Assembly (NCBI GenBank): GCA_009746045.1
Contig: RPFO01000542.1
Location: 158,501-222,500 of the forward strand
Length of the DNA stretch: 64,000 bases
Reading direction: 5' to 3'
Source: Mesostigma viride
Lineage: Eukaryota > Streptophyta > Mesostigmatophyceae > Mesostigmatales > Mesostigmataceae
The notes below the pieces were generated by a model. That model was not told the origin of the DNA. It worked only from the letters and a program-made list of their open reading frames with translations, and made no database searches. The position numbers and the translations under genes are program-made. The stretch's first letter is position 1, and each line of letters opens with the position of its first letter. Below, one piece after another: positions 46,435 to 62,791 of this stretch.

Positions 46435-49400
46435 CTGTCGGGGAAGCAGGAGTGGGGGAGTGGGGGTAGGGGAGCCGGTCGGGGCGCATGATTGCGGTCA
46501 GAGGACAGGTGAGAGAAAATGCGGCAAGGCCTGTCGGGGGCGGGGGGGGGTTGGGGGGGTTGAGTGCAAGGTGGGCGTGCGGATGGGCGGATGCTGTGGT
46601 GGGTAGGAAAACACACCGACTGACCGACCGCCGGACAAAAGGACCGAAGGACCAACCGATTGCCTGCCTGCCTGCCTGCCTGCCTGCCTGCCTGCCTGCC
46701 TGCCTGCCTGCCTGCCTGCCTGCCTGCCTGCCTGCCTGCCTGCCTGCCTGCCTGCCTGCCTGCCTGCCTGCCTGGCTGGCTGGCTGGCTGGCTGGCTGGC
46801 TGGCTGGCTGGCTGGCTGGCTGGCTGGCTGCCTGTCTGACTATGACTGCTGCCAGATCTGTGGGCTTGAGCAGGACCCCTCTTATTGCAGGGTGGGAGTT
46901 CACCTTGCTGCATCTAGCAGCGGAGGGCCATCCCGACATTGTTCAGCACCTCGTTGCGAGCGGTGCAAGCCCCAAGGCCCGGGACAAGGGGAGCTCTGGC
47001 CTTTTCTGCCTAGTCCTTCACCATAGTCACCACCACCGTCATCCATCCCTTATCAAGGACCTATGCTCCATGAACCCTACACAGTTAGGGTATAGGGTTT
47101 CGGGTCACGCCATGTGATTTACTTTCATCTGGCCCCGTTCCCTCCCAGAAACCACCTGTGTTGAGGGAACAACTGTGCCACAAACTTTGGATGTATGGCG
47201 TGTGTGAGCGATACGAGTGACATGCGTAACATAGTAGCCTTACTGTTGTGTCTGTCCTGGCTCACGGTTCCTTTAATACTGCAGCTCTCTTTTCTAGCAT
47301 TTGCACCCTCGTTTATGAGCACACGCAACAGTCCCTTTCCTACTACTGTACCCTATAATAGCATTTGCATGCTCATGACTGTTATGTTTGTCCTAGATCA
47401 CGCACCGGAGAGCGCGGTGAGGCAGCCCAGCTCGCTCGGGTCGCCCAGCCGGTTGCCCGCGATGTGCAGCGCCTGCAGCCGCGGGCACAGCATGGCCAGG
47501 TGGGACAGCGAGCGCAGGCCGCAGTCCTCGAGCCGCAGCTCCACGATGTTGCGCGTGCGGGGCAGTGCCGAGGGGTCCAGGCCCTGAGGGGGCGGGTGGG
47601 AGGGGAGAAAGAAGGAAAAAGCGTGCAGTCGTGTGTGAGAGAGTGGGCGAGAAAGAATGAATTCGTAGATGTTGCGAGCGCGGGGCAGTGCGGATGCGAC
47701 CAGGTCCACGGAGAAGGGGGGAGGGGGGGGAGAGAAGACCAGGTCCACGGAGAAGGGGGGAGGGGGGGGAGAGAAGACCAGGTCCACGGAGAAGGGGGAG
47801 GGGGGGGGAGAAGACCAGGTCCACGGAGAAGGGGGGGGGGGGGGGAGAGAAAGAGGCAGGCAGAGAGCGTGTTTGTGGGAGAGCGTGTAAAATAAAAGAT
47901 ATAGGACTAGAAGTGTGCCACTTAAGTAATGGAGAATTCAGACAGCGAGAGAGCCTATATAGGAGAAATATGAGCGAGAGACAGTGTGTGCAAGCGCATA
48001 TGTGTGAGCACCTGCACGTCGAGTAGCGTGCGATCCAGCACCCAATCAACTTCACCCACATACACACAGCACCCGATAAACAATGCCCCTCATGGCCCAC
48101 ATCTGTCCCCACGACCTCTGTTACTCCCCTGCCCTGCCCACACCCCACCTGATCTTGATGCGGTCGCGGTCCAGCACATGCATCATTACCCCAGCATTGC
48201 CGTTCACACAAGAAGCAACACAGTGAACCCCCTACCTTCATGCAGCTGCGGCCACGCACTCACCTGCACTTGACCCACCAGCTTCCCCGATCATCTATCT
48301 GCTAACCATCACCTTCCTTGATACAATCGCAGCGGGGCACCATTATTTTGGACTAGCCTACTGCACCCACACCATCCCGTTATTCTTCCCCCCCCTTCTC
48401 AACTTGATGCGGTTGCGGTCGGGCAACCTCTTTGGACTAGCCCACTGCACCCACACCATCCCGTTTTTCTTCCCCCCCCCTTCTCATCTTGATGCGGTTG
48501 CGGTCGGGCATCCTCTTTGGACTTGCCCACTGCACCCACACCATCCTGTTTTTCTTCCCTCCCCTCTCAACTTGATGCGATTACAGTCGAGCACCCTTTT
48601 TAACTAGCCTATTGCACCCACAAACTAGCCGATCGCATCCTGTTTCGGCATCCGACCGGTAGTCTCGGGTTAGCGGCTCAAGGGTACGCCTGCTCACCTT
48701 GATGCGGTGGCAGTCCAGCACGCACATCATTACCCCCTTCATCGCAATCTTCCACAAGATGGAACATAGCGAACACCCCACCTTGATGCGGTTGCGGTCG
48801 AGCACCAGCTCCGCCAGCTGTCCCATCCCCCCCAGCCCGTCCAGCCGCGAGATCTCGTTATCCTGCAGGAACAGGCTGCGCAGCCGCGGCAGCAAGTCCA
48901 GCCGAAGTGGCGCCAGGTCCCTCAGCCCGTTGCCCGCCAGCTGGAGCACCTCAAGGCTGTCGGCCAGGGTAGCAGCGGGGGCCTCCCTGGGGGACCGAGG
49001 CACGCCCCCCATGGAGCCGTACCCGTTCGCACTCCCCATGATCGCCTGGGAGAAGCCCATCCCTGCCATCCCGGCGGCTAGCGACCCGACGGGGTTATTA
49101 TTGTTATTATTGCCGGCATTGGAAGGCCCGCCAGCACTGTTGCTATTGTTGGGGTTGATGCTGGCGAGGGAAGGGAACAGCGCGCTGCCCGCCTCGAGCT
49201 TGTTGTTGTTGAGCTGGATGACTTGGAGGTTGGGGCAGGACGCAAGGGGGGACACCTCGGTGAGCACGTTGTTGTCGAGGCAGATGCGGGTCAGCTGGCC
49301 TGCACACGCGTCCCCGAGAACCGTGCCCAAGTCCCGCAGCCTCATCCCGGATAAATCCAGCGTCGTGGGCGACCCAAAGTCCCGGTGGCCCAGCCGCTCT

Positions 49401-62791: not shown

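Follow-up and report, generated by a model that had tools for sequence, protein, structure and literature searches.

Copies of exon-intron junctions in a leucine-rich-repeat protein gene of Mesostigma viride very probably reflect tandem duplication throughout introns

How does an intron come to hold copies of the end of the exon beside it? The question was raised by a gene for a leucine-rich-repeat (LRR) protein in Mesostigma viride, which lies in a 64,000-nucleotide stretch of contig RPFO01000542.1 (the window) in a 440-Mb assembly of 2243 contigs. The gene has 14 exons on the minus strand at 46052-62791 (E1 62613-62791 to E14 46052-46434) and a single frame of 1306 amino acids. The model is based on open reading frames, splice sites and Pfam LRR matches, and is partial, with the 5' end beyond the window. 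All 13 introns are GT-AG with agreeing phases in the reading-frame and splice-site model, and only leucine-rich-repeat proteins were matched by the product in Pfam and PDB searches. A preliminary description, in which the gene was called LRRC9, had reported copies of adjoining exon ends in ten of the introns (2, 3, 5, 6, 7, 8, 10, 11, 12 and 13). As for the surroundings, much of the window to the left of the gene appears to be transposon-derived, and the gene finder output at 38716-43272 on the plus strand resembles a LINE-type retrotransposon, with stretches that look like reverse transcriptase by eye. Simple arrays were found at 29707-30249 (CAGGG, 109 times) and at 34386-34881 (a long array of a 9-bp unit, 55 times), and long GGT-type arrays at 51869-52145 in intron 9 and at 61810-61979 in intron 1. 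Upstream of E1, at 62818-63326, there is a 39-bp tandem array of 12.7 copies whose units carry CAGGTGG on the plus strand.

Our analysis found the gene's own exon-intron junctions copied inside 11 of its 13 introns, that is, in all ten introns named before and in intron 1. Probes spanning the junction (40 exon and 12 intron nucleotides, or 15 and 40) scored above all 111 null scores, which came from the other 37 introns examined, the LRR gene's own included, at 12 of the 26 junction sides, where about 0.23 sides would be expected by chance. Nine introns (1, 2, 5, 7, 8, 10, 11, 12 and 13) were positive in this way. In introns 3 and 6 the copies hold just 4-9 exon bases and were positive solely with fitted probes, whose lengths were picked after inspection of the sequence (p = 0.0054, the lowest value attainable). 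The junction-spanning probe tests gave no junction copy in introns 4 and 9.

All of the copies lie on the minus strand with the gene. Alignment and probes placed a copy of the E2 acceptor junction with 13 exon nucleotides in intron 1 (62006-62059), its AG changed to AT. By the same means the E2 donor junction was found at least three times again in intron 2 (61135-61436, at 61419-61436, 61278-61299 and 61135-61156). In intron 3 a repeat array with a 28-bp unit runs across the E3 donor with 5 exon nucleotides (60249-60305, matched by a fitted probe), and in intron 6 the E6 donor junction occurs three more times, each copy having 4-9 exon nucleotides and an intron part (56576-56706, aligned and matched by a fitted probe). 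Alignment also placed the E5 end with its donor twice in intron 5 (57764-58067, at 57995-58067 and 57885-57910), together with a third copy that lacks the junction (57764-57810); the E8 acceptor junction three times in intron 7 (53717-54294, at 54267-54294, 53842-53873 and 53717-53754); one copy of the E9 acceptor junction in intron 8 (52719-52762); and two copies of the E11 donor junction in intron 11 (50221-50383, at 50347-50383 and 50221-50270). Two copies of the E11 acceptor junction were aligned within an array of 111-bp period in intron 10 (50727-50892), which also holds a short copy of the E10 donor junction (51359-51373, alignment and probes). In intron 12 six aligned copies of the E12 donor junction cover 48140-48721, three of them in a tandem array of 85-bp period (48347-48622), and aligned copies of the E13 acceptor region (47668-47777) run into a 39-bp tandem array (47698-47851). 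Finally, in intron 13 alignment and probes found a copy of the E14 acceptor with 4 exon and 33 intron nucleotides (46527-46560). The arrays at the intron 12 donor, at the intron 10 acceptor and in intron 3 are the clearest.

The exon sequence was also probed by itself. Forty-base exon probes at a score of at least 26 found copies at 7 of the 26 sides and in 6 of the 13 introns, and 50-base exon probes found strong own-intron copies on the donor side of introns 5, 11 and 12 and on the acceptor side of introns 7, 8, 10 and 12, with scores higher than in any of the gene's other introns, whichever strand was searched. When the alignments were anchored at the junction, the intron side was clear for copies in introns 6 and 11 and for one copy in intron 12, and at background level for both intron 5 donor copies and most of intron 12. 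However, that the introns are built from such copies, as had been proposed, was an overstatement. Most of the intron sequence is not junction copy, because the aligned exon-derived bases amount to 587 of 12,819 in the LRR gene (exon part limited to 60 nucleotides, no copies from introns 3, 6 and 13 included) and to 1,178 of 37,745 in a set of 38 introns; recognised exon-derived sequence thus makes up 3-5% of intron length.

The copies could in principle be an artefact of chance, of the likeness among LRR exons or of matches inflated by low complexity, since the gene encodes LRRs and some intron edges are simple repeats, though the latter were masked in the copy counts. However, the exon ends were near background against the other introns of the LRR gene. 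Over the 38 introns the exon edges had a copy in their own introns in 19 of 76 cases and in other genes' introns in 12 of 2188, so the expectation that exon ends are enriched in their own introns held. The same pattern also occurs in histone acetyltransferase, TPR and kinesin genes, and the artefact, being already contradicted, is so improbable that it can be set aside. Direct copies were seen at 19 of 76 edges, compared with 1 of 76 for the reverse-complement control.

A second alternative is that mobile elements carrying splice sites (introners) were inserted into the introns. Matches outside their own gene were found for 4 of the 38 introns in the DNA examined, as expected with ordinary intronic transposons. 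For the other 34 there was no outside-gene match, however, and none of the 38 had a match elsewhere in its own gene in the same DNA. Moreover, what the copies match is the exon beside them in their own gene. The arrays of introns 12 and 10 matched nothing but their own locus in the 440-Mb genome, in a search that skips simple repeats and very common words; a second match of the intron 10 array overlaps exon 11 itself. For both arrays, introners are contradicted and the motifs are not scattered through the genome as a mobile repeat, an outcome that the preliminary description had named as a refutation. Introners as the source are hardly tenable, and the origin of the copies is local tandem duplication. 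The earlier proposal that tandem duplication across junctions adds intron length and leaves decoy splice sites is accordingly supported by copies that are direct and local.

The pattern is not a feature of one gene, as had been thought. Our sample, small and hand-picked, comprised nine genes with 47 introns on six contigs (the window's and five others). Five control genes came from 150 kb and contributed 25 introns, which together with the 13 of the LRR gene form the set of 38; three kinesin genes on three more contigs added nine. From Pfam matches, the first controls include a CBP/p300-type histone acetyltransferase, a HOP/STI1 TPR protein, an ankyrin-repeat protein and a TDBD protein, the kinesins being named likewise; in the ankyrin gene a kinase part is presumed from the translation. 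The fifth, a 'bZIP' gene with one intron, is unconfirmed, its Pfam search having returned no match. Gene models were curated by hand, junctions beside doubtful or missing exons were omitted, and predicted exons of 13-30 nucleotides in the acetyltransferase and one kinesin gene were ignored by eye with known homologues in mind. Exon-edge 40-mers with an own-intron copy (score 26 or more) were as frequent in the LRR gene (7 of 26) as in the other eight genes (16 of 68; p = 0.79), and introns with any edge copied numbered 6 of 13 and 16 of 34. The junction-spanning test was positive for 9 of 13 introns in the LRR gene, 17 of 25 in the first controls and 5 of 9 in the kinesins. Every one of the nine genes had at least one junction copy, and so did all six contigs; the 'bZIP' gene and one kinesin, in which exon-only probes found no edge copy, were positive in this test alone. 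For example, an exon of the acetyltransferase gene ends in GATGCTCATGGCCAAG followed by GTGAGC, then comes GATGCTCATGGCCGAG followed by GTGGGT 31 bases on, and a third copy, GAAGCTCATGACCAAG followed by GTGAGC, lies 112 bases from the first junction. Of the mini-exons that were ignored, a single one is a demonstrated junction copy, namely that in this gene whose end lies at distance 112. GC content was 67.5% in exons and 53.4% in introns. Quadruplex motifs occurred in 10 of the 18 introns that have edge copies and in 15 of the 20 that lack them (p = 0.31), and neither they nor intron length (p = 0.24) set the two groups apart.

Is the junction itself a special substrate, as the preliminary description implied? 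The comparison with neighbouring sequence speaks against it. Local copies were present for 23 of 94 exon edges, 487 of 1994 intron 40-mers and 3 of 782 exon interiors (Fisher's test, p = 1.0 for edges versus intron 40-mers and p = 7e-21 for edges versus exon interiors). Within introns, edge 40-mers (20 of 72) showed no excess over interiors (413 of 1535), and many tandem arrays are wholly intronic. The edge thus behaves as intron does, unlike the exon interior, and copying takes in whatever sequence can be duplicated without changing the protein. These counts weigh against a junction-specific process, for instance one coupled to transcription or splicing or templated by RNA, which would copy exon ends preferentially into introns. 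We regard such a process as unlikely, although it is not without points in its favour: edge copies are somewhat more frequent than in our neutral simulation (below), in two green algae the ends of introns are richer in tandem repeats (PMC3887541), and introns exceed non-genic DNA in local copies. The median local-copy fractions were 0.24 for introns and 0.00 for non-genic blocks (p = 7e-7), and interior intron 40-mers, at 413 of 1535, were about three times denser in copies than single-copy non-genic blocks, at 135 of 1601 (8.4%), the latter being single-copy in the DNA examined, defined by position only and possibly including unannotated genes. Uniform duplication across the genome does not predict this difference, which may stem from young transposons in the non-genic blocks.

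We therefore consider it very probable that the junction copies are exon stuttering, a term taken from a recent report on chicken (Hron et al., 2026), within a general stuttering of introns, in which tandem duplications occur throughout introns, those crossing an edge survive and the copies drift. Direct tandem duplications, local and tens to hundreds of bases long, would arise anywhere in introns. A duplication inside an exon would damage the protein and presumably be lost. A unit straddling the edge would leave the outer junction intact and add to the intron a second exon edge, complete with splice site and flanking intron sequence; such a duplication could survive if the outer site stayed in use, and the inner copy would then decay unconstrained while the true exon edge was conserved. 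The interpretation thus shifts from junctions that copy themselves in one gene to introns that probably stutter genome-wide, with exon edges caught in the process. Uniform duplication, deletion and substitution were simulated forward in time, the exons being kept frozen. Of 12 settings, one with a median unit of 60 gave copies for 17.5% of edges, 24.7% of intron interiors and 1.9% of exon interiors, and one with a median unit of 110 gave 13.1% for edges and 24.9% for intron interiors. The observed values were 24.5% for edges and 24.4% for introns, so that fewer edge copies were simulated than found, and simulated exon-interior copies (1.9-2.2%) exceeded the 0.4% observed. Neutral duplication can account for most edge copies, and a mild excess at junctions is possible, because a simulation with matched intron rate gives fewer of them.

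The state of the copies bears on whether they serve a function. In the 38 introns we aligned 48 copies, diverged to different degrees as described before, with 1029 of 1178 exon-part bases identical (87.4%). Faster decay on the intron side was not supported, identity within the aligned parts being 87.4% for the exon side and 86.9% for the intron side, a comparison made unsafe by the choice of hits. The earlier statement that the splice site stays attached to the copies held for 31 of the 42 copies that reach the junction (74%, in six genes; donor GT 23 of 31, acceptor AG 8 of 11) and failed for the rest. At this divergence the expected retention of a dinucleotide is 0.874 squared, or 0.76, close to the 74% seen, though the choice of alignments may bias it. 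Mismatches by codon position were 12.1, 9.7 and 16.1%, a weak third-position excess, and the copy distances modulo 3 (15, 14 and 19) showed no preference for the reading frame. The copies might be alternative exons or deliberate decoy splice sites: 33 of the 48 have a canonical dinucleotide (its position extrapolated where the alignment stops short), and for 11 of these the score, in a weight matrix built from the sites of other introns, is no lower than that of their own authentic site. Moreover, a simple gene finder trained on the LRR gene called two of them as mini-exons. However, of the 15 intact decoys in the LRR gene 14 would cause a frameshift or a stop if used, and we judge a functional role very unlikely. 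Instead the decoys look neutral, because GT and AG are kept at the rate set by divergence, there is no frame preference and the codon-position bias is weak. The outer, original sites are probably the ones in use, judging by the open reading frame; outer sites alone give a continuous frame, and therefore no new intron is needed.

The two mini-exons deserve mention for their own sake. One is a donor copy at 50363-50371 in the LRR gene, called as an exon of 9 nucleotides, and the other a donor copy at 12568-12597 of the acetyltransferase locus (coordinates of the concatenated pieces), called as an exon of 30 nucleotides. Such calls on donor copies are likely an annotation error in genomes with stuttering introns, and they are a warning for gene finders, to which decoy copies can appear as tiny exons.

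Donor sites as good as the authentic one were frequent. At least one such GT site was present in 19 of the 38 introns and none in the other 19; therefore the correct site cannot in every case be told by its strength, and these introns offer a natural experiment on how the spliceosome chooses among duplicated splice sites. Junction sides with copies were 25 donor to 12 acceptor (p = 0.047; LRR gene 6:6, others 15:4 and 4:2), or 16 to 7 by exon sequence alone (p = 0.09), which is suggestive only of donor-side copies being perhaps twice as frequent as acceptor-side copies. A possible reason for such an asymmetry is order: an acceptor copy lying upstream, together with its branch region, would be encountered first and used, whereas the outer donor would already have been made before any inner copy of it. 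A wider proposal is that introns in this alga grow by stuttering throughout the genome and not just on small GC-rich chromosomes, with the outermost of several near-equal donors reliably chosen, a steady and nearly neutral supply of splice sites, and donor copies tolerated about twice as often as acceptor copies since upstream acceptor copies would be likelier to be captured; we put this forward tentatively and hold it to be rather doubtful as a whole. In any case, a conserved exon edge could act as a built-in reference by which tandem duplication in the adjoining intron is recorded.

How do these introns compare with known systems? In Chlamydomonas and Volvox the density of tandem repeats is highest in introns and rises toward intron ends, whereas here there was no excess at intron ends; the top intron motifs of these algae are dinucleotides, and the accessible part of that paper does not mention exon copies (PMC3887541). 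The creation of introns by tandem duplication across a boundary duplicates splice signals as happened here, but in the case described the new sites were used and an intron was created (PMC3443670), whereas in the LRR gene the outer sites alone give an open frame and the inner sites are apparently unused. Boundary-crossing tandem duplication is also known in a plant, potato (PMC4974935). Introner elements likewise multiply splice sites in introns, but they are reported to be dispersed over many genes (PMC9860276), whereas the copies tested here stay in the intron beside their source exon, and for the arrays of introns 12 and 10 a genome-wide search found no near-identical copies in many genes.

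The closest likeness is to exon stuttering on the dot chromosomes of chicken, described in February 2026, although the preliminary description knew of no system with such a pattern (Hron et al., 2026; PMC12954441). That report lists 236 introns in 115 genes, with 190 of the 236 cases on GC-rich dot chromosomes, where 3.4% of introns pass its screen; its authors had found the pattern in no other vertebrates apart from gerbil genes (data not shown by them), and a link to GC-rich sequence or quadruplex motifs was proposed without being defining. Among the matches listed in our own literature search, in which subscription literature was thinly covered, no title reported the pattern outside birds. 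When the authors' blastn-short screen was applied at their cut of 42.1 bits, 4 of the 38 introns and 1 of the 9 kinesin introns passed (5 of 47), with proximal, direct hits, and at a lower cut based on shuffling there were 19 proximal and no distal hits in the 38 introns. More than 90% of the chicken source segments lie within 1 base of the exon border; here only 7 of 19 did at the lower cut (8 of 19 within 3 bases) and 1 of 5 at 42.1 bits, a shortfall that may be an effect of measurement, with divergence trimming the local alignments. Intron length differs between individual chickens, whereas here it is known from one assembly. Nevertheless, in both organisms the introns are repetitive, holding local direct repeats that are imperfect and tens to hundreds of bases long, and they carry copies of the lateral part of the neighbouring exon together with its donor or acceptor site, the exon itself staying intact. 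The chicken cases are mostly confined to dot chromosomes (PMC12954441), whereas in Mesostigma junction copies occur on all six contigs with modelled genes. What is new here is exon stuttering in a remote lineage, not limited to one class of chromosome and present in every gene examined, so that a feature of avian dot chromosomes becomes possibly a general route by which introns lengthen.
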